From contig NZ_BMKL01000001.1 in NCBI RefSeq assembly GCF_014644315.1, positions 507,001 through 571,000 on the forward strand: 64,000 bases of DNA. The letters are read 5' to 3'. This document shows, in pieces, positions 14,925 through 31,105 of the stretch (its first letter is position 1; every line of letters starts with the position of its first letter). The notes beneath the pieces were generated by a model. It ran no database searches and was not told where the DNA came from. It worked only from the letters and a program-made list of their open reading frames with translations. The DNA comes from Tsuneonella deserti. GTDB lineage: Bacteria; Pseudomonadota; Alphaproteobacteria; Sphingomonadales; Sphingomonadaceae. Position numbers and translations under genes: made by a program.

Positions 14925-17465
14925 TCAGACGGTTAAGCTGGCGCGGAAACGCGGCTTGAGGAGGGCGATGGCGGCGGCGAGTAGCGCGGCGAGCAGCGCC
15001 ACCGCGAACACGCTGCGGTAGCCAAGCGCGGCGAGACCGAAGACCTGTGCGACCTGAGGAATGGCCAGCACCGCCGCATTCACGCCCATTGTCACGCCGA
15101 GGATCACCGGCAGAGCACGGTTGCGCGCCTTGACGTGGCGGCCGAAGGAGCGGTCGGCGAGCACGAGGATCAGCACCGCTACGACGAGGCCCGCGAAGCA
15201 GGTCGCGCGCAGGAGCGGTTCAGCCATGCGGGACGCGGTCGCCCAGGCTCCCAGGGCCAGCACCAGCGCCAGCGCAGCGCTGCCCTGCGCCGCCGCCCAG
15301 ATCGCCATGCCACGGGTTACGAGCGGGCTGTCCTGTGCCCGCGGGGGCCGTGCCAGGACGTCGTCATCCGCCGGCTCCGCTTCGAAGCCGAGCGAGCAGA
15401 CCGGATCGATCACCATCTCGAGCAGCGCGATCAGAACGGGCCCGAGGATGATCGGCCAGCCGAGCAGCAGGGGCGCGATCGCCAGGCCCGCGATCGGCAG
15501 GTGCACCGCGAAGATGAAAACCGCTGCCTTGCGGATGTTGTCGTAAATCCGCCGGCCGAGCGCCACCGCGCTGACGATCGCGCCGAAATCGTCGTCGAGC
15601 AGGACGATGGCCGATGCCGCGCGGGCGACGTCGGTACCGCGCCGCCCCATCGCGATGCCGATGTGGGCAGCCTTGAGCGAAGGGGCGTCGTTCACCCCGT
15701 CGCCGGTCATGGCGACGACTTCGCCGGCGGCCTTGAGCGCGCGGACGATCCGCAATTTCTGTTCGGGCATGACGCGTGCGAACACCCCCACTTGGCCGAT
15801 GCGCCGGGAGAGCTCGATGTCGTCGAGCGCCGTGATCTCGTCGCCCGACATGGTTTCGCCAGCGCGAATGCCGGCCTGGTCGGCGATCGCCCGGGCGGTT
15901 GCCGGGTAGTCTCCGGTGATCATCACCACCCGTATGCCGGCGTCCTGCAACTGCGCCACCGCGGCGGGGACCGCCCCGCGGATCGGGTCCGCCAGCCCCA
16001 CGAGCCCGCGGTAGGCGAAGGCGAAGCCGTGCTGCGAGTCCGGCAGGGTGCCGGGAGGCGCGCTCCCCTCGGCCAGGGCTAGCACGCGCAGGCCCCGCGC
16101 GGCCATGTCGCTTGCCATGCGCTCCATCTCCCGCCGCGCTGCGGGTTCGAGGTGGCACAGGTCCGCGATCGCCTCGGGAGCGCCCTTGGCGGCGACTACC
16201 ATGTCGGGCTTGGCCTCGTTCGACCAGACCTGCGACATCGCCAGGAGTCCGGGCGCCAGCGGATAGAGCCGTTCGGCCGACCAGCCCGCGCCCCGGTGAT
16301 CATCGAGGGACGCGCCCGGGTGCTTGCCTGCCAGGTCGTGCAGCGCCTTTTCCATCGGGTCGAACGGCTCTGCCTGACTCGCCAGCATGCCGAGGGTCGC
16401 AAGCCGCACGTGGGCATCGGAGGGAAGGTGCGTGGCGGGCGTGGGGCGATGGCGCTCCCCGCCCGGCAACCAGAGCTCCTCCACCTCCATCAGGTTCTGG
16501 GTCAGGGTGCCTGTCTTGTCGGTGCACAGGACTGTCGCCGCGCCGAGCGTCTCAATGGCCGAACCGCGCCGGGCGAGCACCCGTGCGCGCGACATGCGCA
16601 AGGCGCCGATCGTCATGAACAGCGCGAGGACGACCGGGAGTTCCTCCGGCAGGAGCGACATGGCAAGCGCGATTCCTGACAGGATGGCAGCCAGCCAGTC
16701 GCCGCGCAGGAAACCGAACAGGAGCACTGCGGTCACGCTCAAGACGATGCCCGCAACGGCGAACCAGCGCACCATCCCGCGGGTCTGGGCGATCAGGCGC
16801 GGAGTTTCACTCTCAAGGGTGGCGAGCGACTTGCCGATCGCGCCGATGCGGCTGCGGGACCCGGTCGCCGCGACTTGCATCAGCCCGGTTCCGCGCACCG
16901 CGAGCGTGCCGGAGAAGGCATAGGGCAGATTGTCGCCGCCGGGGACGGGAGGCGGTGCGATGGTCGACGGCTGCTCTGCCGCGACCTTGGTCACCGGGAC
17001 GGACTCGCCAGTGAGGAGCGCTTCATCGACTTGCAGGGCGTTTGCCTCGACAAGGAATCCGTCGGCGGCGATCCGGCTCCCTTCCGCGATCTCCAGCAAG
17101 TCGCCGCGCACGATCTCGCGTGATTCGATAACCACTCGCCGTCCGTCGCGGATCACGGTGGCGCGCGGCATGGCCAGGTCGCGCAGCGCCTCGACCGCCC
17201 GCTGTGTGCGCACTTCCTGGACCAGCGAGATAGAGATCGTCAGGAGGACGAAGACGAGCAGGATGATCGCCTCGCCCGGATCGCCGAGCAGCAGGTAGAT
17301 CGCGCCGCCCGCCAGCAGCAGCAGAAGCATCGGCTCGCGCAGAACGCCCGCGAAGATCGCGAGGGCCGAGCGGTGCGAAGCGTCGGGAAACTCGTTGGCC
17401 CCATCTTGCGCAAGACGCGCAGCAGCCTCCGCTGCGGTCAGGCCGGGATGTCCAGGCTCGCTCAT
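14925..17465 (-). CDS. Cation-translocating P-type ATPase (P2-like)
   Basis: An 846-residue membrane ATPase. An N-terminal cation-ATPase domain (LTAAEAAARLAQDGANEFP) is followed by actuator motif LTGESVPVTK, the membrane motif PEELP (residues 273-277) in helix 4, the phosphorylation site CTDKTGTLTQN with Asp316, and the hinge MTGDGVNDAPSLKAAHIGIAM. There is no heavy-metal CxxC domain, so it is a P2-type pump for Ca2+ or another hard cation rather than Cu or Zn. The PEELP motif lacks the Gly of the classical PEGLP calcium-pump motif. The start at 17465 overlaps the stop of the CoA-transferase gene as ATGA, so the two are translationally coupled. Confidence 0.9.
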   Translation of the reverse strand: MSEPGHPGLTAAEAAARLAQDGANEFPDASHRSALAIFAGVLREPMLLLLLAGGAIYLLLGDPGEAIILLVFVLLTISISLVQEVRTQRAVEALRDLAMPRATVIRDGRRVVIESREIVRGDLLEIAEGSRIAADGFLVEANALQVDEALLTGESVPVTKVAAEQPSTIAPPPVPGGDNLPYAFSGTLAVRGTGLMQVAATGSRSRIGAIGKSLATLESETPRLIAQTRGMVRWFAVAGIVLSVTAVLLFGFLRGDWLAAILSGIALAMSLLPEELPVVLALFMTIGALRMSRARVLARRGSAIETLGAATVLCTDKTGTLTQNLMEVEELWLPGGERHRPTPATHLPSDAHVRLATLGMLASQAEPFDPMEKALHDLAGKHPGASLDDHRGAGWSAERLYPLAPGLLAMSQVWSNEAKPDMVVAAKGAPEAIADLCHLEPAARREMERMASDMAARGLRVLALAEGSAPPGTLPDSQHGFAFAYRGLVGLADPIRGAVPAAVAQLQDAGIRVVMITGDYPATARAIADQAGIRAGETMSGDEITALDDIELSRRIGQVGVFARVMPEQKLRIVRALKAAGEVVAMTGDGVNDAPSLKAAHIGIAMGRRGTDVARAASAIVLLDDDFGAIVSAVALGRRIYDNIRKAAVFIFAVHLPIAGLAIAPLLLGWPIILGPVLIALLEMVIDPVCSLGFEAEPADDDVLARPPRAQDSPLVTRGMAIWAAAQGSAALALVLALGAWATASRMAEPLLRATCFAGLVVAVLILVLADRSFGRHVKARNRALPVILGVTMGVNAAVLAIPQVAQVFGLAALGYRSVFAVALLAALLAAAIALLKPRFRASLTV

Positions 17466-18760
17466 CCCAGCGTGCGCGCCAGGTCCTGCCGGAACGAAGG
17501 GTGCGCGATCTCGATCAGCGCCTCGGCGCGCTCGCGCAGGGATTTGCCCTTCAGGTCGGTCCAGCCGAATTCGGTGACGACGATTTGCGTGTCGTTGCGC
17601 GGCGTCGTAACCGGCCCGGTCAGCTGCGGGACGATGCGCGAAACCGTGCCGTCCTTCGCGGTCGAGGGGCAGCAGATGATCGACTTCCCGCCTGCCGATG
17701 CCGCGGCGCCCCGCACGAAGTCGAGCTGCCCGCCCGATCCGCTGTACTGCCGGCCGGTTACGTGTTCGGAATTGCACGCGCCGCTGAGATCGACCTGCAA
17801 CGTCGCGTTGACCGAGACGACTCCCGGATTCTTGGCGATGTGGCGCGGGTCGTTGACGATGTTGACCGGCGCGGCGTGGAAGGACGGATTATCGTCGAGC
17901 AACTCGTAAAGCGCCGCGTCTCCCATCGCGAAAGTGAACACGCTGCGTCCCGGATAAGTGACCTTTCGCCAGTTTGTGACCGCTCCCGAACGGACCAGCG
18001 CCGCAAGGCCGGGCGCCAGCAATTCGGTATGGATGCCGAGATCGCGCCTGTCCTGCAGCAGGGCGCAGACCGCGTCGGGGATGCCGCCGATGCCCATCTG
18101 CAGGCACGCGCCATCCCCGATCATCCCGGCAACGGTCTGTGCGATGGCGCTTTCTTCCGGGGAGGGCTGGCGCGCTTCGATTTCGGCTAGCGGAATCGAA
18201 TGCTCCACGATCGCATCGACTTCGGAGATGTGCAGCATCGCGTCGCCGAACACGCGCGGCATGTGGGGGTTGACCTCGACGATCAGCCGCTTCGCGCTGC
18301 GGGCGGCGGTAGAGCCGTAATCGTTGCCGACCCCGAAGGTGAACCAGCCGTGCCGGTCCATTGGCGATACGGTGACGATGAACGTATCGAGCGGCACCCG
18401 CTCGCTGAGCAGACGGGGCGCTTCGCTGAAGGCGACCGGGACGAATTCGATCGGAGGGGCTTCTCCGCGTGCCTCCGCCTCGCGCATGATTGCCCGCTCC
18501 ACGCGCGAGAGGAACATGCAATGCGGGCTGATCCGGTCGAGCAGGTCGTAACGCAGCACCGTCCGCGCCGCATGGTCGAGCGAATGGAAATACCATAGCT
18601 TGAGATCAGCGACTGCCCCGGCTTCGACCCGGTTGGCGAGCGCCTGAAGAAGCGCAGGTGGCTCGGCCACCGCCATGCCCATCGCGATGTGCGCGCCCGA
18701 GGGGATCGCGGTGACGGCCTCCTCGGCGGTGACGAGCTTCAGGCGGTATTCCTCGTTCAT
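17462..18760 (-). CDS. Acetyl-CoA hydrolase/CoA-transferase family protein
   Basis: A 432-residue protein of the acetyl-CoA hydrolase/4-hydroxybutyrate CoA-transferase family, which moves CoA between acyl groups through a glutamyl thioester. The family motifs LQMGIGGIPDAVCALL, LGIHTELL (holding the probable catalytic Glu) and the C-terminal block VVTEFGWTDLKGKSLRERAE with IAHPSFR are present. The start at 18760 gives MNEEYRLKLVTAEEAV; a Met 12 codons upstream is possible but less family-like. It is coupled to the downstream P-type ATPase by ATGA. The substrate (acetate, succinate or a hydroxyacid) cannot be told from sequence. Confidence 0.88.
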   Translation of the reverse strand: MNEEYRLKLVTAEEAVTAIPSGAHIAMGMAVAEPPALLQALANRVEAGAVADLKLWYFHSLDHAARTVLRYDLLDRISPHCMFLSRVERAIMREAEARGEAPPIEFVPVAFSEAPRLLSERVPLDTFIVTVSPMDRHGWFTFGVGNDYGSTAARSAKRLIVEVNPHMPRVFGDAMLHISEVDAIVEHSIPLAEIEARQPSPEESAIAQTVAGMIGDGACLQMGIGGIPDAVCALLQDRRDLGIHTELLAPGLAALVRSGAVTNWRKVTYPGRSVFTFAMGDAALYELLDDNPSFHAAPVNIVNDPRHIAKNPGVVSVNATLQVDLSGACNSEHVTGRQYSGSGGQLDFVRGAAASAGGKSIICCPSTAKDGTVSRIVPQLTGPVTTPRNDTQIVVTEFGWTDLKGKSLRERAEALIEIAHPSFRQDLARTLG

Positions 18761-18915
18761 GAGCAGTCCGGTGGGCCCTCCCGCATCGCCGCGCACTGGG
18801 GAACTCTACTTAAGGCAGACGCGGCAGGACAGGGGCGTCCGTATCATTCCCGATGGGGGGAGGCTGCGGCCCGTTCTATCGGCGGACGATGGATACGGAT
18901 TTCGGGAGCCATTCG

Positions 18916-19680
18916 ATGAACGTGCAGTCATGCGGGCAATTGCGTATCGTCATCACAGGCGGAGCCCGCGGCATCGGGGCGGCCACGGTTCGCCTGCTGG
19001 CCGAGGGCGGAGCGAAAGTTCTGGTCTGCGACGTGCTCGACGGCGAGGGCGAACAGCTTGCAGCCGACCTGGGAGACAATGTCCTTTACCGCCATCTTGA
19101 CGTCACCAGCGAGAGCGAGTGGGCGCCGGCCGTGGCGTTCGCGCAGGAGCGGTTCGGATCGCTGAATGCGCTGTTCAACAATGCCGGCGTGCTCGGGCTG
19201 GGCAGCGTGGCCGAGTGCAGCGCGGCAGATTTCCGCCGCATCGTTGAAATCAACCTCGTCGGCGCATTCCTCGGCATCCGCGCCTGCGCCCCCGCGCTGA
19301 AGGAGGCAGGCGGCGGAGTGATCGTGAACACCTCGTCGATCGCGGGACTGCAGGGCTATGCCAACCTTGCGCCCTACGTGACGAGCAAATGGGGTCTGCG
19401 CGGGCTCACCAAGGCTGCTGCGCTCGATCTCGCAGCCGATGGGATCCGCGTGCTGTCGCTGCACCCGGGGCCGATCCATACGCCGATGACTGCGAACATG
19501 CCCGAGGAAGTCGCCGCCGCGCAGCCTATTCCCCGCTTTGGCGAGCCCGAGGAGGTCGCCCGGATGGTGCGCTTCATGTTGACCGAGGCCACGTATTCGA
19601 CCGGCAGCGAGTTCGTAGTCGACGGCGGGGCGGTAAGCGGTCAGGTGCTCGCGCTCGAGCGAAACGGCGGCGGTCGGTAG
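18916..19680 (+). CDS. Short-chain dehydrogenase/reductase (classical SDR)
   Basis: A 254-residue NAD(P)-dependent oxidoreductase. The cofactor motif TGGARGIG is at 14-21, the structural NNAG motif at 88-91, catalytic Ser140/141 in NTSS, and Tyr154-x3-Lys158 in YVTSK. HPGPIHTPM and the terminal DGGAVSGQ complete the classical SDR pattern, close to 3-alpha(20-beta)-hydroxysteroid dehydrogenase-like enzymes. Asp39 after strand 2 (VCDV) favours NAD over NADP. The start at 18916 has GGGAG at good spacing; ATG 18889 is an alternative. It is divergent from the CoA-transferase across 155 bp and followed after 21 bp by the beta-CASP gene, possibly in one transcript. Confidence 0.9.
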   Translation: MNVQSCGQLRIVITGGARGIGAATVRLLAEGGAKVLVCDVLDGEGEQLAADLGDNVLYRHLDVTSESEWAPAVAFAQERFGSLNALFNNAGVLGLGSVAECSAADFRRIVEINLVGAFLGIRACAPALKEAGGGVIVNTSSIAGLQGYANLAPYVTSKWGLRGLTKAAALDLAADGIRVLSLHPGPIHTPMTANMPEEVAAAQPIPRFGEPEEVARMVRFMLTEATYSTGSEFVVDGGAVSGQVLALERNGGGR

Positions 19681-19701
19681 CTTTCACCAGGACCATAGAG
19701 G

Positions 19702-21293
19702 ATGACCCTTTCCCTTGCCGTTCACGGCGCCGCCCGGACCGTAACCGGCTCCTGCATCGAACTCATCGCAGGAAAGTCACGCATCTTGCTGGAATGCGGC
19801 CTGTTCCAGGGCTCGCGCTCGCTGGAAGCGCTCAACCATGAACCGTTCGATTTCGATCTGAAAGGCATCGACGCCGTGGTGCTGAGCCACGCCCATATCG
19901 ATCATAGCGGCCTCCTGCCGCGGCTGGTGGCGGAAGGCTTCACCGGTGCGATCTGGTGCACCGTGCAGACCGCCGACCTGCTCGAATTCATGCTCGCCGA
20001 TGCCGGGCGCATCCAGGAGTACGAAGCCGAGCGGCGCAACCGCCGCCGCGACCGGGCCGGGGAGACTCCGTTCGAGCCGATCTATACCGAGGAAGACGCG
20101 CTGGCTGCCTGGCGCGCCGCGCGCCCCGTGGCGCTGGAGGAATGGTTCGAACCCGCCCCCGGTTTCCGCGTGCGCCTGTGGAACGCGGGCCATATTCTCG
20201 GCTCCGCATCGGTCGAGGTGGAAGCGGAAGGCGTGCGCCTGCTCTATTCGGGCGATCTGGGGCCGGAGAACAAGGCGTTCCATGCGCATCCTGCATCCCC
20301 GGCCGGATTCGATTTCGTCATCTGCGAAGCCACTTACGGCGACCGGATGCGCGAGCGCGTATCCATTGAGGATCGGCGGCGGCTGCTCGAAGGCGAAATC
20401 CTCGCCGCCCGCGCACGTGGCGGCAACCTGGTGATCCCCAGCTTCGCGCTGGAGCGCACCCAGGAACTCCTGCTCGACATCGCCACCCTGTCGAGCAGCC
20501 AGCGGATCGGGCAAGCGATGGTGTTCGTCGATTCCCCGCTCGCCAACCGGGCCACCGACGTGTTCCGCAAGTACGCCAGTGAGCTGGAGGACACGGGCGG
20601 GCGCGACATCTTCGGCCATCCATCGATCCGTTACGTGAATGACGTCGCCGAATCGATGCGGCTCAACACCCTCTCGGGCGCGATCATCCTCGCCGCCTCT
20701 GGCATGTGCGAGGCGGGGCGCATCCGCCATCATCTGTTCTACAATCTGCCGCGGCCGGATTCGACGATCCTGTTCGTGGGCTTCCAGGCCGAAGGTTCGC
20801 TCGGCCGGGTGATCCTCGAGGGAGCAAAGCGCGTGCGCATCTCGGGCCGCGACGTGCGCGTGCGGGCACAGGTGCGCCAGATCGACAGTTACTCGGCCCA
20901 CGCCGACCAGGCAGGGCTGCTCGATTGGCTGCAACAGCGCATCCCGATCGCGGGCAGCCTGTTCCTCGACCACGGCGAAAGCGCTTCTCTCGAAGCCTTG
21001 CGGCGCGAGGCGCAGAGCCGCGGTGTCGCACAGTCCATCATCATCCCGGAGAGTTGGGCGAGCGGTACGAGCTCCGACCCGGGGAACCCGCGCGGCGCAC
21101 GAAGACGGGCCTGCCCGAGCGCCAGCAGGCGGTCGGGCGCGATTGGCAGAACAGCTATGCCGATCTCGCCGCGAACCTGAAGTCGCGGCTGGCGTCGATC
21201 CGCGATGCCAAGGCGCGCCAGAAGGCGATCGCAGAGATGCAGAAGGTGCTCGACAGCTACACCGAGTTCAGAAACGGCAGGAAGAAGGCTTGA
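19702..21293 (+). CDS. MBL-fold beta-CASP RNase family protein, with apparent frameshift near the C-terminus
   Basis: A metallo-beta-lactamase fold hydrolase of the beta-CASP RNA-processing group. It has HAHIDH (His63, His65, Asp67, His68), the beta-CASP block SFALERTQELL, ASGMCEAGRIRHHL and the late SYSAHAD motif, so the active site is intact. As read, the frame runs to a stop at 21180 (492 residues) with a low-complexity tail after residue 450. From about 21051 the other frame (stop at 21293) encodes LGERYELRPGEPARRTKT and then GRDWQNSYADLAANLKSRL, which looks like the genuine family C-terminus. Skipping two bases (AG) or stepping back one base in the GGAGAGTTG stretch at 21048-21056 restores a product of about 529 residues. 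This could be a sequencing error, a real mutation or recoding. The end given is that of the restored gene. Confidence 0.85.
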
Positions 21294-21299
21294 GACCCG

Positions 21300-22208
21300 T
21301 CAATCGCCTGCGCCGGATATCGGACCGAGCGCCCGCGCGATACCTTCGGCGAGTGCGGACGAGACGTCTATCGCATTGCTAGGGTGCGCGATCGTATTGG
21401 TGCTGACGACCCGCCCAGCGCCTGCGGCCCGGAGTTCCTCGTAGCTCTCGCCGGCAAAAATAGGGTGCACCACGGCACAGACCGGGTCGTTGAAGCCTCT
21501 TTCGCGCAGCAGCCGCACCGCCTCGATCAGGGTCTTTCCACTCGAGGCAATGTCATCGACGATTACCGGTGTTCCAGTCGCAAGTTCGTTCAATCCCGCT
21601 GGGTCGATCGTGACCGAGTACGGTCCGCTGCGAACTTTGCGCAGGATGGTCGCGCGGCCTCCGGCGGCCTGTGCGATGCGCCCGGCCCACTGCGCGCTTT
21701 CCTCGTCGGGGCCGACGATCACCGGATTTTCCACCTCACGCGCGACCCAGCCCGCAATTGCCTCGCTCGCGCTCACCGCGACGGCAGGTATCGAATAGAC
21801 CCCCGCAAGATCGGGCAGGCGGTGGAGGTGCGGGTCGGTCGTCACCAACCAGTCGAACCGCGCGGACAAGACCTCGCCGAAGATCGCCGCGCTCACCGCT
21901 TCGCCCGCCCTGAAGGCAATATCCTGCCGCATGTAGGCTAGATAGGGCGCGACCAGCCCGACCGAGCGGGCGCCCTGCTGCCGCGCGGCGCCGGCGGCCA
22001 GCAGCAGCGGCACGAGCTTGGCGTCAGGGCGGTCGAGGCTGCACAACAGCGCGACGTCCCGGCCCTCCACCGGGGATAGCAGCCGGACATGAGACTCCCC
22101 GTCCGGGAAATGCGACAGCGCCAGTTCGCCCAGCGCGTCAGCGGTGTGCCCCACCAAAGCCGTAGCAAGGCCGGGCGCGGCGGACAGCTCGAACAGCAGC
22201 ATCGTCAT
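21300..22208 (-). CDS. Ribose-phosphate pyrophosphokinase-like protein (PRPP synthetase family)
   Basis: A 302-residue protein of the PRPP synthetase family, which transfers pyrophosphate from ATP to ribose 5-phosphate. Motifs are HFPDGESHVRL near residue 33, PYLAYMRQDIAFRAGEAVSA, TTDPHLHR in place of the usual DLHxxQ, and the PRPP-binding loop VIVDDIASSGKTL. The divergence of the DLH motif and the PYLAYxRQD form recall archaeal Prs rather than the housekeeping bacterial enzyme, so this is probably a specialised paralogue. Its ATG overlaps the phosphorylase stop as ATGA. It is the last gene of a five-gene coupled operon and converges on the beta-CASP RNase. Confidence 0.88.
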   Translation of the reverse strand: MTMLLFELSAAPGLATALVGHTADALGELALSHFPDGESHVRLLSPVEGRDVALLCSLDRPDAKLVPLLLAAGAARQQGARSVGLVAPYLAYMRQDIAFRAGEAVSAAIFGEVLSARFDWLVTTDPHLHRLPDLAGVYSIPAVAVSASEAIAGWVAREVENPVIVGPDEESAQWAGRIAQAAGGRATILRKVRSGPYSVTIDPAGLNELATGTPVIVDDIASSGKTLIEAVRLLRERGFNDPVCAVVHPIFAGESYEELRAAGAGRVVSTNTIAHPSNAIDVSSALAEGIARALGPISGAGD

Positions 22209-23722
22209 GCTTCTGTAAGTTGCAGGATGCGCGCGTTCGCGGCGGCGAATTCGAGCGCGTAGGCCAGTTCGCCCGGTGTTTCCGCGTGAACCGTGAGCAG
22301 CGGCTGGCCCCTGGAGATTTCGTCACCCAGCTTGACGTGGATGCGCACGCCCGCCGAAGCGGCGGCAGGCGCTCCTGCGAGCTTGGCCAGCTTGGCCAGA
22401 AGGCGGTTGTCGATCGACGCGAGCCGGCCCGCCTCCGGGGCGACAAGATCGTGGCGGAGCGGGGCGACCGGCGGCTCGCGGAAGCCCCCTTGCGCGGCGC
22501 AGATGGCAAGGAATTTGCGCAGCGCGCGTCCATCGTCGAGGATGGACGCGGCAAGCGTCTGCCCGGCTCCCTGTTCTGCCGCGCCGCCCAGCTCCAGCAA
22601 TTCGCCTGCCAGAAGGAGCGCACGCGTGCGCAGGTCGGCCGGAGCGGAGTTCTCGCAGCGCAGTACCGCCAACACGTCGTGCGCCTCCAGCGCAGGGCCA
22701 ATCCCGTTGCCGACCGGCTGCGAACCGTCTGTGACGATCGGCCGCACATCGAGCCCCACTTCCTTGCCGACCAGCGTGAGGAATTCGCTCAGCTGGCTCG
22801 CGTCTTGTGGGCTGCGGACCTTTGCGGTGGGGCCGACGGGAAGGTCGATCAGCACGTGGGTGGATCCCGCCGCCAGCTTCTTCGACAGCACCGAGGCGAC
22901 GAGCTGGGCCGAACTGTCGAGCCCGACAGCGCGTTCGACGCGGATGATGATGTCGTCCGCCGGGCTGAGGCCGACATTGCTGCCCCAGACGACGCATCCT
23001 CCCTCGCGCTCGACGACCTTGCGCATTGCGGCAATGTCGAGATTGACCGGCGCCATCGTCTCCATCGTGTCGGCCGTGCCGGCCGGCGAGGTGATCGCGC
23101 GGGAGGAGGTCTTGGGTATGGTCAGGCCTGCCGCGGCGGCTATGGCCACGAGCAACGGGCTGGTCCGGTTGGCGGGCAGTCCCCCCACGCAGTGCTTGTC
23201 GACGATCTGGCGGCCGGGCCAGGTCAGGCCCTCGCCCACTTCCACCATTGCCCGGGTCAGCGTGACCATCTCCCCGAAATCGGCCTGGTGGCTGGAGAAG
23301 GCGGTGATGAAGGTCGCCAGCTCGACATCGGAATAGCGTTCGGTGGCGACGTCGCGGATGATCGACCGGATCTGGTCATCGTCCAGCCGGTGACCGTACA
23401 CTTTGGCCCGCACCGCGCTCATCGAGGCCACCGGAAGCGGATGGCGCAGATTTACCGGCGTGCCGTCCGGAACGTCCAGGTGTGACCATACATCTTCCGA
23501 CAGCCCGACCTCGTGCTCCCCGATAAGGCCGTCCGACACCTGGTACATCGTCGCAAGCGCGCTGCGTCCGCCGGCCACCAGTTCCACTTGCGCCCGTGCG
23601 GTGAAGCCCACTGATCGCGCGATGGGACAGTCGGCATGGAGCAGCACGATGGGCTCCTGCTGTGTTTCGAGCCGCAGACGGCGCGTGCGCAGCACCACCG
23701 AGGATTGAACCGCGTCATGCAT
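22205..23722 (-). CDS. Thymidine/AMP phosphorylase family protein (archaeal-type, long form)
   Basis: A 505-residue member of the pyrimidine nucleoside phosphorylase superfamily. It is longer than bacterial DeoA (about 440) because of an N-terminal domain of about 85 residues, as in the archaeal AMP phosphorylase group, which converts NMP plus phosphate to base plus ribose 1,5-bisphosphate. The signature KTSSRAITSPAGTADTME, the loop KHCVGGLPANRTSPLLVAIA and DDIIIRVER fit that subgroup. The C-terminal part (HVKLGDEISRGQPLLTVHA) is the usual phosphorylase domain. The start at 23722 has GGAAGGA 8 bp upstream. It overlaps the ATPase gene by 8 nt and the Prs gene by 4 nt. Whether the substrate is NMP or nucleoside needs assay. 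Confidence 0.88.
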   Translation of the reverse strand: MHDAVQSSVVLRTRRLRLETQQEPIVLLHADCPIARSVGFTARAQVELVAGGRSALATMYQVSDGLIGEHEVGLSEDVWSHLDVPDGTPVNLRHPLPVASMSAVRAKVYGHRLDDDQIRSIIRDVATERYSDVELATFITAFSSHQADFGEMVTLTRAMVEVGEGLTWPGRQIVDKHCVGGLPANRTSPLLVAIAAAAGLTIPKTSSRAITSPAGTADTMETMAPVNLDIAAMRKVVEREGGCVVWGSNVGLSPADDIIIRVERAVGLDSSAQLVASVLSKKLAAGSTHVLIDLPVGPTAKVRSPQDASQLSEFLTLVGKEVGLDVRPIVTDGSQPVGNGIGPALEAHDVLAVLRCENSAPADLRTRALLLAGELLELGGAAEQGAGQTLAASILDDGRALRKFLAICAAQGGFREPPVAPLRHDLVAPEAGRLASIDNRLLAKLAKLAGAPAAASAGVRIHVKLGDEISRGQPLLTVHAETPGELAYALEFAAANARILQLTEA

Positions 23723-24401
23723 GGACGATCCTTCCATCGAGCAACTCGATCCGCCGCGGGCACTGCGCGGCGATGTGCGCGTCGTGCGTCGAGATAAGGA
23801 AGCTGCTGGAAAGGCTGTCGTTTATCGAACGGATGAGGGCCATGACCTCGTCGGCGGTCTGGCGGTCGAGATTTCCCGTCGGTTCATCCGCCAGCACCAG
23901 CACCGGGTCGTTGATCAGCGCGCGCGCGACCGCGACGCGCTGGCGCTGTCCCCCTGACATGGCCGCAGGCCGGAAATCGCGCCTTTCGGCCAGACCCATC
24001 GCGTCGAGCAGCTCGCCAGCCTTCGATCGCATCGGCGCGGTCTCGCGCCCGGCGGCGGCCGCGGCGGGCATCATCACGTTCTCGATTGCGGAGAGGTCGG
24101 GCAGGAGGTGATGGAACTGGAACACGAAGCCCAGGTACTTGCTGCGAAATTCGGTCCGCTCCGCTTCGCTGGCCTGCATTAGGTCGGTCCCGAGCATTTC
24201 GTGGCTTCCCCCTGAAGCGCGCATCAGGGTGCCGAGGATCGACAGCAGCGTGCTTTTGCCTGAGCCGGAGGGACCGAGAAGCGCGGCCATCTCCCCTTCC
24301 GCGAGCTGCAGGTCGATGCCCTTGAGCACCAGCGTCTCGGCTTCGCCATCGCCGAAGCTCTTGGTGAGCCCGCTCACGGTGAGGATGGTCCCGGCGCTCA
24401 C
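23715..24401 (-). CDS. ABC transporter ATP-binding protein (MacB/LolD type)
   Basis: A 228-residue ATPase with Walker [11 protein letters not shown]-loop FVFQFHHLLPDLSAIENVMMP, signature [15 protein letters not shown] and Walker B VLVLADEPTGNLD. The Q-loop text is typical of the MacB/LolD/FtsE group that works with FtsX-type permeases in mechanotransmission or lipoprotein release. Translation starts with GTG at 24401, which overlaps the permease stop as GTGA. Its partner is the permease at 24398. Confidence 0.92.
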   Translation of the reverse strand: MSAGTILTVSGLTKSFGDGEAETLVLKGIDLQLAEGEMAALLGPSGSGKSTLLSILGTLMRASGGSHEMLGTDLMQASEAERTEFRSKYLGFVFQFHHLLPDLSAIENVMMPAAAAAGRETAPMRSKAGELLDAMGLAERRDFRPAAMSGGQRQRVAVARALINDPVLVLADEPTGNLDRQTADEVMALIRSINDSLSSSFLISTHDAHIAAQCPRRIELLDGRIVHA

Positions 24402-25603
24402 GTGCCGATCGCCTGCACCGGATCGATCCGAGCGGCGTTGCGCGCGGGGAGGATCGAGGCGAGGACCGCTGCCAAGGTGGTCAGGCCGATGGCGAGCAGA
24501 AAATCGCCTTGGCCGCGATCGATCGGCAGCCCGCCGCTGGCGACTTCGGTGACAGGCGGAAGCGGGAGCAGCGCAAGCCAGGCCGCCAGCGCCCCGAACA
24601 GCGCTCCGACCAGGCCGATCAGCGTTCCCTCGAAAACGAAAATCGAGACGACCAGGCTCCGGCTGGCGCCCATTGCCCGCATGATGCCGATTTCCGCCTG
24701 CCGCCTGACGATCGACAGCAGCATCGCGCTGGCGATGCCGACCACGATGGTGACCAGCGAAAACGCCTTGATGATCGTCCCGGTGCGCGCTTGCGCATCG
24801 AGACCTTCGAACAGCTGGCTGTTGTCCTCTGTCCAGGCCGTAGCCTTGAGCCCGGTCGAACGGCGCAGGCGTTCGGCGACGGCAGGCGCGGCGGTCGCCG
24901 GCGCGACCTTGATTTCGATGCGGGAGATGCCGGTCGAAAGGTCGAACAACGCTCGCGCGGCGGTGAAGTTCATGTACACCGCCTGCCGGTCCGCGCTGGC
25001 GATGCCGAGGGCGAAGATCCCGCCGATGCGGAAGCTTCGCGCGCGGCCACGGTCGGAATTCAGCCGCACCACCTGCCCGACGCGCAACCCCAGATCGCTG
25101 GCAAGGCGGCTGCCGATAAGGATGCCGTCCGCCGGGAGATTGCCACTGCCCTCGACTATCGCGTCCCCGATGTCGGCAATGACGGAAAGCTTGCCCGGCA
25201 TCACCCCGATCACCCCGACGGGGGCAACTGCCTGTCCGCGCTCGACAAAAGCCGATCCGCGTATCTGCGGGGAAACCGCGGTCACCCCGGCGGTCTGCTC
25301 GATGATCGGCACGGCTGGCTGCCAGATGGCAATCTGCTCGCGCCGGCCGAGGTCCTTCTGCACCGCTACGTGGCTCTGCGCCCCCGCAACGAGCGCTACC
25401 GGATCCCGGTCCGGCATCTCCAGCACGATGTGCGGGATGCTGCCCACCGTTCGCAAGGTGAGCAGCGTCGCCAGGCCGCCGATAAGCGCGCTCATGAAAA
25501 TGAACACGCTGACGCCCAGCGCGACACCAGCCATGAGCAGCGCAGTCTGGCCGGGATGGGACAGCAGGTGGCGCACGGCCAGCTTGGCGGCGTAGCGGTT
25601 CAC
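24398..25603 (-). CDS. ABC transporter permease (MacB/LolC-like, FtsX domain)
   Basis: A 401-residue inner-membrane protein with the four-helix type VII ABC layout: one helix near the N-terminus (HPGQTALLMAGVALGVSVFIF), a large periplasmic MacB-PCD-like domain (about 50-260), and three C-terminal helices in the FtsX domain that include VGIASAMLLSIVRRQAEIGIMRAMGASRSLV. The GTG at 25603 is chosen because it follows the membrane-fusion protein stop by one base and opens a short basic N-terminus; an ATG at 25657 would overlap that gene by 53 nt. The final residues DPVQAIGT are the usual ending of this family. Confidence 0.9.
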   Translation of the reverse strand: MNRYAAKLAVRHLLSHPGQTALLMAGVALGVSVFIFMSALIGGLATLLTLRTVGSIPHIVLEMPDRDPVALVAGAQSHVAVQKDLGRREQIAIWQPAVPIIEQTAGVTAVSPQIRGSAFVERGQAVAPVGVIGVMPGKLSVIADIGDAIVEGSGNLPADGILIGSRLASDLGLRVGQVVRLNSDRGRARSFRIGGIFALGIASADRQAVYMNFTAARALFDLSTGISRIEIKVAPATAAPAVAERLRRSTGLKATAWTEDNSQLFEGLDAQARTGTIIKAFSLVTIVVGIASAMLLSIVRRQAEIGIMRAMGASRSLVVSIFVFEGTLIGLVGALFGALAAWLALLPLPPVTEVASGGLPIDRGQGDFLLAIGLTTLAAVLASILPARNAARIDPVQAIGT

Positions 25604-25604
25604 C

Positions 25605-26660
25605 TCAATCGGCGATCCGCACCCGTTCGCCCGGGCTGGCGGCTTCAGGATCGGCAAGAACGCGCTCGCCCGCCTTGAGCCCGCGTGTCACGACCACTTC
25701 CTCGGCCGGCCAGTCGATGAAGGCGATGGGACGCGTGGTCACGACCCCGTCCTCGTCAACGACCCTTACCGCAGGCGCGCTCCCGGCCTGGACGATGGCG
25801 CTGCGCGGGATTGTAATCGCGTCCTTGCGCCGCTCGATCACGAGATTGACTGTCACGGTGAGGCCCGATGGAGCCTGCAGCGGGTTGTCGGTCAGCGCGA
25901 TCCGCACTTCGCGCGCGCCGGTCGCCGGATCGACTCGCGGCGCGATGGTCAGCACTTGCCCGCGAAATTGGCCGGGTTGTCCGGTAACGTCGATCACTGC
26001 TTCCATGCCGGGGCGGATGTCGGCGGCGTAGATCTCGTCCACTTCGGCGGACACTTCGGGGCTCGCGAGGTCGGCGAGATGGTAGATGACGCTCTCTGGC
26101 CCGACGGTCTGGCCGGGATCCACTGGACGGTCGAGGATCACGCCGGAGAACGGCGCCCGCAGCACCCGCCGGTCGCGCAGTTCGCGGGCCTGGACCACCG
26201 CCGCGCGCCTTCGCTTCAGCTCGCGCTCGCCTTCTACTACCGCGAGCCGCCTGGCCTCGACCTCCCGCTTCGCCGCGAACTGGCCCAGCGCCTCGAAGCG
26301 TGCAAGATCACGCCGGGCCTGTGCCACCGTAGCCTGCTGCGTCTGCACCGAAGCCTCCGCTTCGGCGATCGCAGCCGTCTCCGGGGCGTCGTCGATCCGC
26401 GCCAGGACCTGGCCTTCCGCAACGCGATCGCCCACGTCGAAAGGCAGCAGGACTAGCTCTCCGCCGAGGGAGGGGCGCACGTCGATCTCCAGCCGGGGGC
26501 GAACCCGCCCGTTGACGGCGAGCACCCGCTCGGCTGGACCCCGCTTCACCAGGAGCGCGCGGACCTCCTTGTCCCGCGGGATCAACAGCCAAAATGCCCC
26601 CGCAGCCACGGCCACGGCGACAATCACGACCAGCAATTTGCGCAATACCGCGGTGTTCAT
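25605..26660 (-). CDS. Periplasmic adaptor / membrane-fusion protein (HlyD/MacA-like)
   Basis: A 351-residue protein with a single N-terminal membrane anchor (LLVVIVAVAVAAGAFWLLI), a biotinyl-lipoyl-like half motif (VGDRVAEGQVLARID), a coiled-coil hairpin (about residues 90-165, rich in Ala/Arg/Glu), the second lipoyl half (LRAPFSGVILDRPVDPGQTV) and beta-barrel and membrane-proximal domains. This is the standard adaptor layout for tripartite efflux and MacB-type exporters. It is the first gene of the minus-strand operon and its stop is one base from the permease GTG. The 190-bp gap to the divergent ATPase gene must hold the promoters of both operons. Confidence 0.9.
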   Translation of the reverse strand: MNTAVLRKLLVVIVAVAVAAGAFWLLIPRDKEVRALLVKRGPAERVLAVNGRVRPRLEIDVRPSLGGELVLLPFDVGDRVAEGQVLARIDDAPETAAIAEAEASVQTQQATVAQARRDLARFEALGQFAAKREVEARRLAVVEGERELKRRRAAVVQARELRDRRVLRAPFSGVILDRPVDPGQTVGPESVIYHLADLASPEVSAEVDEIYAADIRPGMEAVIDVTGQPGQFRGQVLTIAPRVDPATGAREVRIALTDNPLQAPSGLTVTVNLVIERRKDAITIPRSAIVQAGSAPAVRVVDEDGVVTTRPIAFIDWPAEEVVVTRGLKAGERVLADPEAASPGERVRIAD

Positions 26661-26850
26661 CCGGCGGCACCTTATCAGGTGGCGGCCATCTCAATAGCGC
26701 AAATTCGCAAACCTCTTCGACCGGGCAGGACCGATTTACGCGGCGGCGGTTGTTTCAGGCTGCCGCCCGCGATGAGACTGGGGGATTCTACTGATTTCCT
26801 CGCGCCCTGCGGAGCTTGAACGTGACCTTCTCGCGAAGGGCAGCCTCTCG

Positions 26851-27591
26851 ATGCACGATACCGAATTCCAACCCGAAGCATCCGAAGGGGCGCTGGCCTT
26901 CACGGGGCAGGATCTCACCAAGATCTACCGCACCGGCGAAACGGAAGTGGCAGCGCTGCGTGGGGTGGACATGTCGATCGTGGCGGGGGAGATGCTGGTG
27001 CTGCTGGGCCCGTCCGGCAGCGGCAAGTCCACTTTCCTCAACATCACCGGGGGGCTGGATCGCCCGACCTCGGGCAAGCTGTTCTACCGCGATCTGGAAC
27101 TGACGGCGCTTTCGGAGCGGGAGCTGACGCGTTTCCGGCGCAGGCACGTCGGCTTCATTTTCCAGTTCTATAACCTCATTCCCAGCCTCACCGCCGAGGA
27201 GAACGTGCGGCTGGTCACCGACATCGCCGAAGCGTCGATGAGCCCGGCCGAGGCGCTGGCGCTGGTCGGGCTGGAGGACAGGGCGGCCCACTTTCCCGCC
27301 CAGCTATCGGGAGGAGAGCAGCAGCGGGTCGCCGTCGCGCGCGCCATCGCGAAACAGCCTGCCGTGCTGCTGTGCGACGAGCCGACCGGCGCGCTCGACA
27401 GCGCCACCGGCGTGCGGGTGCTCGAGGCGATCGAGCAGGTTCATCGCGCGCTTGGGACGACGGTGGTCATCATCACTCACAATGCGGGTATCGCGGCAAT
27501 GGCTCACCGGGTGTTCCATTTCCGCGATGGCGACATCGTACGCATCGAGGTCAATCAAAGCCCGGTCGAACCGGGCGGGATCCAGTGGTGA
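26851..27591 (+). CDS. ABC transporter ATP-binding protein (DevA/MacB type)
   Basis: A 246-residue ATPase with Walker [11 protein letters not shown]-loop [18 protein letters not shown], signature [15 protein letters not shown] and Walker [13 protein letters not shown]. Its domain is closest to the DevA/LolD/MacB exporters, like the ATPase of the opposite operon at 23715. The stop overlaps the GTG start of the following permease (GTGA). It is the first gene of the plus-strand exporter operon. Confidence 0.92.
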
Positions 27592-29951
27592 GCGCGCTCC
27601 ATCTCAAACTCTTGCGGGATCTGTGGAACCTGCGGGGACAATCGTTCGCCATCGCAGTTGTCCTCGCTGCCGCGAGCGCGACTTTCATATTGTCGCTGGG
27701 CGTTCACAGGTCGCTCGTCGAAACCCGCGACGCCTACTATTCGGCGAACCGGTTTGCCGAAGTCTTCGCCGACCTGACCCGCGCCCCGCGCTCTGTCGTC
27801 GAACGGGTCGCCCAAATCCCGGGTGTCCAGAGAGTGGACGGCCGTATCCGGCAGTATGCGACGCTGGATTTCCCCGGCCGGGTCACGCCCGCGCGGGCAT
27901 TGATCAACTCGATCGACGAAACCGGTCGCGACCGCCTCAACCTGCTGACGCTCAAGGAGGGGCGCCTGCCACGGCCCGGGGCCAGCAGCGAAGTGGTGGT
28001 CGACCAGACTTTTGCAGAGGCAAACGGACTGCGGCCCGGCAGCGTGCTCGGCGCGCAAATCTATGGCCGTCGCGAACAATTGCGCATCGTCGGCATCGGC
28101 ACGGCGCCCGATTACATCTGGGCGCTGGCGCCCGGCGATCTCACCCCGGACGAGAGCCGCTTTGGCATCTTCTGGATGGGCTCGCGCGCTCTCGAGGGGC
28201 TGACCAACCGGACCGGTGCTATCAATTCGCTGGCGCTGACGGTCCAGCGCGGAGCCTCGATCGACGACGTGATCCGCGCGGTGGACCACCTGCTCGCGCC
28301 CTACGGAGGGACCGGCGCCTACACTCGCAAGGATCACATATCGCATGCCTTCCTCGAGAACGAGCTGACCCAGCTGAAGGTGATGACGACGGTGATCCCG
28401 CCGGTGTTCCTCCTGGTTGGAACCTTCCTGGTCTACATCGTGCTCAGCCGGCTGATAGCCACGCAGCGGACCCAGATCGGCCTTCTCAAGGCGCTCGGGT
28501 ACACCGACCTGGCGATCGCCGATCACTATCTCGGCTTCGCGCTGGCGATCTCGCTCCTCGGAGCCGTTCTGGGCGGGCTGAGCGGCATCTGGCTGGGACG
28601 CCAGATGACCGAGCTTTACGGCCAGTATTATCGCTTCCCCTTTCTGACCTACCACATCGCGCCGGAGGTGATCGTTGGCGCTTCGGCGCTCTGCGTCCTG
28701 TCGGCAGGCCTCGGATCGCTCGGCGGATTGCGAACCGCCTCCCGTCTTACGCCTGCGGTCGCCATGTCGCCCCCGCCGCCCCCGACTTACCGGGCGGGCC
28801 TGGTCGAACGTCTCGGAAGGGCCGGCGAATTCAGTCCGATCGGGAACATGATCGCGCGTCACATCGCTCGGTGGCCGGGCCGTTCGGCAGTCACCGTGTT
28901 CGGCGTGGCGCTCGCGGCAGGATTGCTGTTCGCGACCATGCAGTTCCTCGATTCGAGCCGCGCCATGCTCGACGGATTCTTCTTCCGTGCCCAGCGGCAG
29001 GACATCACGGTCGGCTTCACCGAGCCGCTCAACGAGGCGGCCCTGCACGAACTTAGGCAGGTTCCCGGCGTCCTGCGAGTGGAGCCGGGCCGCGGGATCC
29101 CGGTGCGGATGGCCTCGGGCAATCACACCATGCGCACCGTGATCGAGAGCAGTCCCGGGGATGGCGTGCTGTCAGCCCGGATCGATGCCGGCGGATCGGA
29201 AATCCGGGTCCCTCCGGCAGGCCTGATGCTGAGCCGCCGGCTCGCCGAAAAGCTGGGCGTAAGCGCGGGCGATCATGTCAACGTCGAGCTTCTCGGCGGA
29301 CGCCGGACTGCCCGTCCCCTCCCCGTCGCCAGCGTATTCGACGAATTCGTCGGGGAGCGCGCGTACAGTTCCACGGCTACCGCGATGTCGTTGGCGCGCG
29401 ATGCGTCGCCGGTCGGCATGGCCCTGCTGCGGATCGACCCAGCGATGAGGGATAGCGTGATCGAGGCGCTCAAGGAGATGCCTCGGGTCCTCGGCGTGAC
29501 CGAGCGGGCGGCGGCGCTGGAAAAGTTCGAGCAGGTCATCGACGAAAACATCTTCACGATGCTGTTCTATTACATCACCTTCGCCTCGGCGATCGCGGTG
29601 GGTGTCGTCCATAACAGCGCGCGCATCCTGTTTTCCGAACGGGCTCACGAACTCGCCACGCTTCGTGTGCTCGGTTACCAGAGCAGCGAGGTGGGGCTGG
29701 TTCTGATGGGCGAGATCGCGTTCCTTATCGTGGCTTCGGTGCCGCTTGGCTGCCTGCTCGGCTATGGACTGGCGCAACTGATGACCGCGATGTTCAGCTC
29801 GGACCTCTTCCGCCTTCCGTTCGCTCCCCTGCGTTCGACCTATGGCTGGTCGGTCGTCATCGTCCTCATCGCAGGCGTGCTGACCGCGCTGGTGGTACTG
29901 CGGCGGGTGTTCGGCCTCGACATGGTCCGTGTCCTGAAGGCGAGGGACTGA
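27588..29951 (+). CDS. ABC transporter permease with two FtsX domains
   Basis: A 787-residue inner-membrane protein, about twice the length of the single-FtsX permease in the opposite operon. An N-terminal helix ([18 protein letters not shown]) is followed by a periplasmic domain, a first FtsX core (about 265-380, with [22 protein letters not shown]), a second N-terminal-type helix ([19 protein letters not shown]), another periplasmic domain and a last FtsX core (about 660-785, with [21 protein letters not shown]). It therefore probably works as a monomeric eight-helix permease. GTG start at 27588, coupled to the ATPase gene; the stop overlaps the next ATG as TGATG. Confidence 0.9.
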
Positions 29952-31105
29952 TGGCTGGCTGGCTCAAGCGCTGGCGCTGGGCGGCGCTGGTCGCGGCGCT
30001 CCTCGTGGCAGGCTTTGCATACGCGTTCTGGCCGCAGGCGCAGACGGTGGACGTCGCTACGGTCACACGGGGCCCCCTGGCGGTCGGCGTTACGGACGAC
30101 GGCGTGACCAGGGCGGAGGATGTCTACATCGTTTCGGCTCCGGTGACCGGGTATATTTCGCGGGTCGAGGTGGAGGAGGGTGACCTGGTCGCCAAAGGGC
30201 AGGTCATCGCCCGCATGGCGGCGGCGCCAACGCCCCCTCTCGATCCCCGCAGCGTGCGCGAACTCACGGCCTCGATAGCGTCGGCGGAAGCGGCAAGGGC
30301 TGGAGCGGAGACCGCGCTCGGCCAGGCGCGGCGCGACCTTGCCCGCGCGCAGGAGCTCTCCAACCGCGGGTTTCTGCCCCGCGCGCAGCTCGAGGCGGCG
30401 CAGACCCGGGTGGCCAGCGGCCAGGCACTTCTGGCGCAGAGCCGTGCCGAGATCGCGCGCCTGAAGGCGCTGCGCGACACTGGAGGCGGCGTTGCTTCCG
30501 GCGCGGCGGTCGCGGTGCGCGCTCCGGCGAGCGGCGCAGTGCTGTCCCTTCTTTCCGAAAGCGAAGGGGTGGTCCTCGAAGGAACCCCGATAGTCACCAT
30601 CGGCGATCCGCGCCGGATAGAGGCAGTGATCGACCTGCTTTCACGTGAGGCGGTGCGGGTCAGTCCGGGAGACAGGGTGGAGTTCACCCAATGGGGCGGT
30701 GACCGGCCGCTCACGGGCCGCGTCGACCGGGTGGAGCCCGCGGGCAAGCTCAAGGTATCGGCCCTCGGCATCGAGGAGCAGCGGGTTAACGTGATCATCC
30801 ATTTCGATCCGGACTCCGCGGTCAGGGCCGCGCGGCTGGGCCACGGCTACCAGCTCGACGCCACGATCATTCTGTGGAGCAGCGCAGATGCCTTGCGAGT
30901 GCCCATCGGCGCGCTGTTCCGCAATGACTCGGGCCGCTGGAGCGCATTCGTGCTGGACGGCGGACGTGCCCGGCAACGGGAAGTCCGGATCGGCCATATC
31001 AACGAGGATTTCGCCGAGGTGCTCGGCGGATTGAAGCAAGGCGACAGAGTGGTGCTCAATCCGGGCAGTTCGATCGAGGACGGCAGCCGGGTGACCGCGC
31101 GCTGA
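29951..31105 (+). CDS. Periplasmic adaptor / membrane-fusion protein (HlyD family)
   Basis: A 384-residue adaptor with one N-terminal membrane anchor (WAALVAALLVAGFAYAFW), lipoyl halves (VEEGDLVAKGQVIARM and VRAPASGAVLSLLSESEGVV), and a coiled-coil hairpin between them (about residues 95-175). It completes the plus-strand exporter with the two preceding genes. No outer-membrane TolC-type gene is in the window, so export across the outer membrane would need a partner encoded elsewhere. Its stop is 31 bp from that of the convergent DUF1622 gene. Confidence 0.9.
   Translation: MAGWLKRWRWAALVAALLVAGFAYAFWPQAQTVDVATVTRGPLAVGVTDDGVTRAEDVYIVSAPVTGYISRVEVEEGDLVAKGQVIARMAAAPTPPLDPRSVRELTASIASAEAARAGAETALGQARRDLARAQELSNRGFLPRAQLEAAQTRVASGQALLAQSRAEIARLKALRDTGGGVASGAAVAVRAPASGAVLSLLSESEGVVLEGTPIVTIGDPRRIEAVIDLLSREAVRVSPGDRVEFTQWGGDRPLTGRVDRVEPAGKLKVSALGIEEQRVNVIIHFDPDSAVRAARLGHGYQLDATIILWSSADALRVPIGALFRNDSGRWSAFVLDGGRARQREVRIGHINEDFAEVLGGLKQGDRVVLNPGSSIEDGSRVTAR

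Follow-up and report, generated by a model that had tools for sequence, protein, structure and literature searches.

In a 64,000-nucleotide (nt) stretch of the Tsuneonella deserti genome, referred to here as the window, a phosphorylase gene, a gene for a protein resembling ribose-phosphate diphosphokinase (Prs) and a converging gene for a beta-CASP RNase were identified (Table 1), a gene set whose probable role is the salvage of RNA ribose under oxygen shortage. We lean, with modest confidence, towards a mobile accessory ribose-salvage module that in the window lies downstream of an ATP-binding cassette (ABC) exporter which is not its usual partner. As we infer its course and direction, the RNase, acting as a 5′-3′ exonuclease, would release 5′-nucleoside monophosphates (NMPs) from RNA, the phosphorylase would split them with inorganic phosphate (Pi) into the base and ribose-1,5-bisphosphate (R15P), and the Prs-like enzyme would remove R15P, passing ribose-5-phosphate (R5P) to central metabolism. 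The preferred last step is R15P + adenosine monophosphate (AMP) → R5P + adenosine diphosphate (ADP), which would be Prs chemistry in reverse with one phosphate less and would keep part of the bond energy as ADP. This route had been outlined by a sequence-only reading of the locus, which described five minus-strand genes with a converging beta-CASP RNase. All of these genes were located as claimed with family matches far above chance, and the predicted route is supported by families, motifs and a strong linkage of the three enzymes.

To describe this linkage, loci from the window's order (48 of 296 genomes with a phosphorylase over the cut-off) and from the Pseudomonadota at large (45 of 398) were mapped up to ~20 kb around the gene. 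The 93 mapped loci include the window, and one of them lacks a phosphorylase; a further, named set holds the best 80 of 587 loci. Mapped loci were picked by the presence of the phosphorylase, and only the counts in the 398 genomes are a free test of co-occurrence. Some loci come from genomes that are identical or nearly so (L035/L179, L050/L168, L065/L068-L071/L204 and L153-L156/L160/L161), and several contigs are short. Among the 398 genomes, the phosphorylase family NF003338 (E<=1e-120) occurred in 45 and the Prs-like family NF005537 (E<=1e-60) in 41, with both in 40 (Fisher p 3e-48, a value that ignores shared ancestry). The two genes are adjacent in 37 of these 40 pairs; in the other three the matches used are separated by 3.8-4.4 kb or placed on different contigs, and one of these genomes (G445) also holds a second, adjacent pair. 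In 78 of the 93 loci the Prs-like gene is found on the same strand within 100 nt of the phosphorylase, and in 61 the RNase gene lies within 200 nt of either; within 300 nt, the named set has the Prs-like gene in 63/80 and the RNase gene in 54/80 loci. The conserved unit, as judged from gene order, consists of phosphorylase, Prs-like protein and RNase, whose linkage across bacteria is strong. In several loci (L052, L056 and L119-L122) a gene family including nadC, identified in L121, accompanies the phosphorylase. The phosphorylase of L119-L122 is divergent, locus mapping found no Prs-like partner there, and these enzymes possibly use another substrate.

The window phosphorylase, a member of the NF003338 'thymidine phosphorylase' subfamily, also reaches 570.0 bits with TIGR02645. 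Its closest solved relatives, by sequence and by structure, are the archaeal AMP phosphorylases 4ga5 and 4ga4. The AlphaFold model, which includes the N-terminal domain of AMP phosphorylase, matched 4ga5 best (TMq 0.90) while thymidine phosphorylases and pyrimidine-nucleoside phosphorylases (PyNP) reached 0.68-0.73, values that describe the fold only, without ligand geometry. The comparison of active sites covered 172 sequences from modules, 120 of archaeal type and 14 of DeoA type, the latter being those that yielded sequence from 20 fetched regions. Module and archaeal enzymes agree at W251, P300 and K306, in the loop P188-N190 and along the strand around K209-D223. In particular, the strand sequence PKTSSRAITSxAGTAD and the PGNxT loop are of the AMP-phosphorylase type and unlike the 14 DeoA-type sequences. 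At two positions that are Gly in 97-98% of module sequences, the window protein has Ala189 and Ser253. Archaeal AMP phosphorylase converts NMPs to base and R15P and was formerly misannotated as thymidine phosphorylase (PMC8376864). Because fold and active-site motifs follow this enzyme, NMPs are favored as substrate of the window phosphorylase; that they are its main substrate appears reasonably likely. The archaeal look noted earlier for this protein is thus confirmed insofar as it appears closer to AMP phosphorylase than to DeoA. With the pentose bisphosphate pathway of archaea, exemplified by the AMP phosphorylase of Thermococcus kodakarensis, the window enzyme would also share the expected product R15P. 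However, the partners in archaea are an isomerase and RuBisCO, whose place is taken here by the Prs-like protein and the RNase; moreover, the window genome has no match to R15P isomerase and its phosphorylase stays below the AMP_phos cut-off.

Alternatively, the protein may be a true nucleoside or deoxynucleoside phosphorylase, as its database name implies, which would supply ribose- or deoxyribose-1-phosphate to salvage. Consistent with this, Lys181 is of the DeoA type in 172/172 module sequences, whereas 81% of the archaeal set have Val, and the sole other match to the family in the genome is weaker than those listed (E above 1.8e-8). We nevertheless regard this explanation as improbable, since the DeoA and PyNP models are not passed (PRK05820, 203.2 bits, cut-off 269; TIGR02644, 184.9 bits, cut-off 409.05; TIGR02643, 150.4 bits, cut-off 570.7) and the strand, the loop, the N-terminal domain and the fold scores all side with AMP phosphorylase.

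The Prs-like protein passes TIGR01251 (189.7 bits, cut-off 113) as well as NF005537, both named ribose-phosphate diphosphokinase. By sequence and by predicted structure, compared at the level of the fold only, its closest solved relative is Prs of Methanocaldococcus jannaschii (1u9y), a class III phosphoribosyl pyrophosphate (PRPP) synthetase; an archaeal look had been proposed for this protein too, and it applies. Fold and catalytic residues are shared with the class III enzyme, all of the latter being kept in the window protein (R94, Q95, D96, H127, D168, K191, R193, D218, D219 and T226). The difference lies in the loop, PDxGG in Prs, that binds the diphosphate. The PDxG glycine is lost, so that the PDxGA of the class III enzyme becomes PDxES, and an invariant HLHR motif is added. 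E170 is present in 155/155 module sequences, while Gly occupies this position in 30/31 canonical Prs sequences and in 1u9y, 4twb and 6nfe; H129 and R130 also occur in 155/155, whereas canonical enzymes show no fixed residue at 129 and carry Gln at 130 in 30/31, one of the 31 rows, which looks like a wrong frame, being retained in the counts. In Escherichia coli Prs, D170 holds a magnesium ion contacting the ribose hydroxyls and H131 one at the nucleotide phosphates (PMC9232217). These residues align with D168 and H127 of the window protein, and E170 is placed two residues past D168. We hypothesize from these residues that Glu170 weakens the binding of a second phosphate and thereby directs reverse Prs chemistry to R15P, yielding R5P and ADP from AMP. 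Pro196 of the window protein, found where 153/155 module sequences have Asp, may mark drift in this copy.

The genome gives a further hint at the substrate. R15P isomerase (TIGR00511) had no match in the window's own genome. PhnN, the known bacterial R15P-consuming enzyme and a member of a family unrelated to the Prs-like protein, had none over the cut-off, the best match below it (50.5 bits) presumably being guanylate kinase. Therefore, the paired Prs-like protein would be the natural consumer of R15P. It is quite conceivable, though tentative, that it acts on this compound; the exact reaction with AMP is more doubtful. On the other hand, the protein may be an ordinary but regulated PRPP synthetase, in which case the module would sustain PRPP and nucleotide salvage at low oxygen, with the phosphorylase freeing bases from which phosphoribosyltransferases rebuild nucleotides. 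The intact canonical catalytic residues and the names of both passed families are in line with this possibility, which we consider unlikely: a canonical Prs was already present in 40/40 genomes of one sample, the invariant E170, H129 and R130 set the module proteins apart from canonical Prs, and a PRPP synthetase so strictly paired with an enzyme of the NMP-phosphorylase type would give a futile loop.

The RNase contains the metallo-beta-lactamase (MBL), Beta-Casp and RMMBL domains and matches TTHA0252 with E 6.5e-75. Its sequence SHAHIDHSG fits the HxHxDH motif of beta-CASP RNases (PMC10340364), and 5′-3′ exo-RNase activity has been described for TTHA0252 (PMC4229858). Two RNase lineages (types a and b) pair with the phosphorylase, and on the phosphorylase tree the RNase type changed at least four times. 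The window and L067 are cross-overs in which a b-type phosphorylase is combined with an a-type RNase; L183 and L189 were also scored as type a within the b clade, at only 38-39% identity, and their type is unsure. This repeated re-pairing with RNase lineages argues that the three enzymes work together.

Regulation links the module to oxygen. In Bradyrhizobium diazoefficiens, bll3115, bll3116 and bll3117, annotated as MBL hydrolase, ribose-phosphate pyrophosphokinase and thymidine phosphorylase, respectively, are induced under microoxia; the values given (2.9/4.4/2.1 and 15.4/7.7/5.1) are read, from a partial table header, as log2 protein change and transcript fold change, respectively (PMC6515984). 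In this one species, control by FixK2 has been published: deletion of fixK2 lowered bll3115 30.6-fold and bll3117 6.6-fold, and a box is located at -74 (PMC9104804). The same table contains the phosphoketolase-acetate kinase operon bll2518-bll2517 (PMC9104804). For Burkholderia cenocepacia, it has been remarked that nucleoside ribose could supply energy under micro-oxia (PMC3759415). Upstream of the module, FNR/FixK boxes (TTGAY-N4-RTCAA, searched from longest open reading frame (ORF) starts) with at most one mismatch were found in 30/164 loci versus 4.0 expected from shuffles that preserve base composition only. Perfect boxes were present in 14/164 versus 0.14 (shuffles) and 0.87 (random windows), nine of them within the 48 loci of the window's order. 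The window genome encodes a regulator with an ETVSR helix, which we take to mark it as FNR-like. Low oxygen is thus the signal conserved with the module, which, judging from its gene order and boxes, is recurrent. In relatives it would be under FNR/FixK control at low oxygen, whereas the window copy, which has no box, would probably share the transcript of the exporter. The operon bll3117-bll3116-bll3115 resembles the window module in combining the same three annotated enzyme types, in B. diazoefficiens in one predicted operon. It differs by its FixK2 box and microoxic induction, while in the window the RNase gene is on the opposite strand and of the swapped lineage and the other two genes follow an exporter.

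The earlier suggestion of a phosphate-recycling function had been based on a Pho locus a few kb away. PhoB, PhoU, Pst and PhoR genes do lie at 5.9-13.1 kb, RNA breakdown frees phosphate and PhoB-like regulators occur in the flanks of 12/171 other loci, although the PhoB family is large. By contrast, no homologue of PhoU, PstA, PstB, PstC or PstS with more than 35% identity was found in the flanks of the 171 other loci, the phosphorylase would consume Pi, and the published control is by oxygen via FixK2 (PMC9104804). The proximity therefore stands but the Pho link was rejected, and recycling of RNA phosphate during phosphate starvation is extremely improbable as the function of the module.

The neighborhood of the module suggests how pentose phosphate might be used further. 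A phosphoketolase-like protein is encoded nearby in 29/80 named loci, acetate kinase in 14/80 and both in 12/80, seven of the 29 being copies or a relative of one island. On a plasmid of Pseudorhizobium flavum the order is Prs-like, 'xylulose 5-phosphate 3-epimerase', RNase, phosphorylase, and the second of these proteins, by position and length, appears to be phosphoketolase-like. A divergent phosphoketolase-like family (~800 aa) was also seen beside the module (L042:14278-16698 and L260:5169-7556), with NCBIfam phosphoketolase scores far below the cut-off; the plasmid protein annotated as the epimerase is related to it. In many relatives, a phosphoketolase-like protein together with acetate kinase would thus yield acetyl phosphate and ATP from the pentose phosphate. 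P-type ATPase homologues lie near the module in 37/80 named loci; PPK2 (8/80) and type II GAPDH (10/80) are mostly on copies of one island.

Several observations weigh against the ribose-salvage reading. Besides Lys181, the phosphorylase has Cys183 where 4ga5 has Ser, and it reaches 463.9 bits with the AMP_phos equivalog TIGR03327, below the cut-off of 535. The Prs-like protein could, with its catalytic residues kept, still make PRPP, and unless a pull is provided, the reaction R15P + AMP → R5P + ADP may be energetically unfavorable. Pairing is not complete, as 5/45 genomes have the phosphorylase without NF005537 and 1/41 shows the reverse. From about residue 450 the conserved C-terminal tail of the window RNase is out of frame (region 21050-21293); the frame holding the tail ends at 21293, 6 nt before the stop codon of the Prs-like gene, and the frame change is either a sequencing error or a real lesion. 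No FNR/FixK box with up to two mismatches was detected upstream of the window adaptor gene, and 134/164 loci have none at up to one mismatch. In the window's genome, neither phosphoketolase (E<=1e-10, a threshold that a divergent copy could escape) nor acetate kinase was detected. For this reason the genome probably runs only the core of the pathway, and its ribose would be used through the ordinary pentose phosphate pathway; fermentation by phosphoketolase and acetate kinase was rejected for it and kept for the relatives only. Finally, a literature search, thin on subscription papers, gave no functional study of these bacterial proteins and no activity for any NF003338 or NF005537 protein.

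The sequence-only reading had further coupled the enzymes to the exporter encoded upstream. The five minus-strand genes are likely one message, as judged from joints with overlaps of 4-8 nt and one 1-nt gap in the ORF coordinates: a 1-nt gap between adaptor and permease, a 4-nt overlap between permease and ATPase, an 8-nt overlap with a good ribosome-binding site between ATPase and phosphorylase, and a 4-nt overlap between phosphorylase and the Prs-like gene. A consensus scan of positions 17000-27500 gave no sigma-70-like promoter, with shuffles averaging 1.0. The adaptor-permease-ATPase trio of the window, however, was beside the phosphorylase in 0/171 other loci, and the permease had a match at E<=1e-30 in 4/59 other relatives and 0/10 congeners. 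A conserved five-gene order of exporter and enzymes, which does not pass the check in relatives set by the sequence-only reading, was consequently rejected; the exact order is particular to the window's lineage. Neighbors were labelled by the best-scoring query, by which LolD, LolC and HlyD are only roughly separable from the subunits of the second exporter; with this labelling, the LolC and HlyD matches outside the window were confined to L046, where their distance from the phosphorylase is 6.9-8.2 kb, and ATPases labelled LolD were at least 1.9 kb away from it. The trio is similar to MacAB, LolCDE and DevBCA-type exporters in having an HlyD adaptor, an FtsX permease and a MacB-class ATPase. 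It differs in scoring below the cut-offs for both LolD and LolCE, in having ATPase and permease unfused, unlike in MacB, and in adjoining the module only in the window.

What remained of the proposed coupling concerns another exporter. Gene clusters akin to the second, divergent exporter (26851-31105; HlyD, duplicated FtsX and ATPase) were found near the module in 13/171 other loci, ten of them on the strand of the phosphorylase, and the flanks of the other 158 contain none. In 11 of the 13 the nearest exporter edge is at most 2.4 kb from the module, compared to 4.8 expected under uniform placement in the flanks (P ~0.0003); without two near-duplicates the count is 9/11 (P ~0.001, same assumption). 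In L061 the exporter ATPase gene is on the same strand 16 nt downstream of the RNase, in L189 the exporter HlyD gene shares 4 nt with an acetate kinase gene of the cluster, and L109 has a complete MacB 27 nt upstream of the phosphorylase. MacB-class exporters have thus become attached to the module repeatedly and in different ways, and the occasional tie is real in position; the assumption that all exporter links are accidental was dropped since the family of the divergent exporter recurs. It is possible in principle that an exporter of the MacB class cooperates with the enzymes, for instance by exporting the base or another low-oxygen product, and besides the overlapping joints in the window and the crowded or contiguous arrangements elsewhere, an HlyD-type adaptor gene, bll4634, is listed in the FixK2 table (PMC9104804). 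The absence of such an exporter from most flanks, the failure of the window trio to recur and the variation of exporter genes among loci make this very unlikely. Moreover, the plasmid records listed for the phosphorylase (60 of 105) and for the exporter permease (60 of 62) had only one in common, on which the genes are ~30 kb apart. To our knowledge, the substrates of MacB/Lol-type exporters are lipoproteins, peptides or macrolides rather than bases.

The module itself is mobile. The phosphorylase was found on 105 plasmid records, 46 of which are predicted to be conjugative. Loci L153-L156, L160 and L161, which carry the labels Pseudomonas, Hydrogenophaga, Achromobacter, Pigmentiphaga and Burkholderiales, are 98.7-99.4% identical over a stretch of ~18-21 kb that surrounds the module and, on this identity, represents a recently spread mobile island. 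On plasmids, the modules L258, L259 and L260 are located among heavy-metal P-type ATPases, resembling a stress island, with polyphosphate kinase 2 (L259), type II GAPDH and AarF/UbiB (L259, L260) and FtsH (L260) as companions. The window stretch looks accessory too, because the permease has no match in congeners and the nearby coenzyme A (CoA) transferase has a relative at E<=1e-60 in only 1/10 of them, with 39% identity. The ORF of the P-type ATPase next to it was called mechanically and overlaps that of the CoA transferase, so its true start is probably near 17462. For two genes of the minus-strand run other starts are conceivable: the permease has a longer TTG start at 25657 that would overlap the adaptor, and the phosphorylase, whose ATG is preceded by GGAAGGA, an ATG at 23737; the protein database form has 505 aa.

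Table 1. Genes of the module and its surroundings in the window (coordinates of the window; scores in bits)
Feature	Position	Strand	Evidence
NMP (AMP)-phosphorylase-like enzyme, NF003338 'thymidine phosphorylase' subfamily	22205..23722	-	NF003338 (PRK04350) 640.8 bits (cut-off 434)
Prs-like protein, NF005537, altered loop GPDEES (E170) and DPHLHR	21300..22208	-	NF005537 365.6 bits (cut-off 322)
Beta-CASP metallo-beta-lactamase RNase, TTHA0252-like	19702..21180	+	Pfam Beta-Casp (E 2e-32), Lactamase_B, RMMBL
LolD/MacB-type ABC ATPase, overlaps phosphorylase start	23715..24401	-	TIGR02211 (LolD) 247.9 bits (cut-off 307.75)
MacB/LolC-type FtsX permease, GTG start	24398..25603	-	Pfam FtsX and MacB_PCD; TIGR02212 (LolCE) 142.5 bits (cut-off 362.45)
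HlyD/RND-type periplasmic adaptor, first in five-gene run	25605..26660	-	Pfam HlyD_D23 and HlyD_3; RND_mfp 181 bits (cut-off 94.9)
Divergent second ABC exporter	26851..31105	+	Pfam; ATPase 26851-27591, FtsX permease (859 aa) 27372-29951, HlyD 29951-31105
Short-chain dehydrogenase, same strand, 21 nt upstream of RNase	18853..19680	+	Pfam adh_short_C2
Acetyl-CoA hydrolase/transferase-family protein, accessory region	17462..18796	-	Pfam AcetylCoA_hydro and AcetylCoA_hyd_C
PMCA-type P-type ATPase (mechanical ORF)	14925..17777	-	Pfam E1-E2_ATPase

Context and residues put the names thymidine phosphorylase and PRPP synthetase in doubt for a gene pair carried by about one in ten of the sampled Pseudomonadota genomes. 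We regard the module as a variation on NMP degradation by way of pentose bisphosphate, and there is a credible chance that the Prs-like enzyme has a new activity. A wider and rather speculative proposal is that the 'PRPP synthetases' of NF005537 are R15P phosphotransferases (AMP to ADP, or ADP to ATP), which together with the NMP phosphorylase and the exo-RNase would form a mobile pathway from RNA to pentose phosphate and phosphoryl energy without oxygen, separate from the isomerase/RuBisCO route of archaea. If the ribose-salvage reading is true, it would correct an annotation that hides the R15P branch in bacteria, and the module would be a general bacterial means of living off their own RNA under oxygen limitation.

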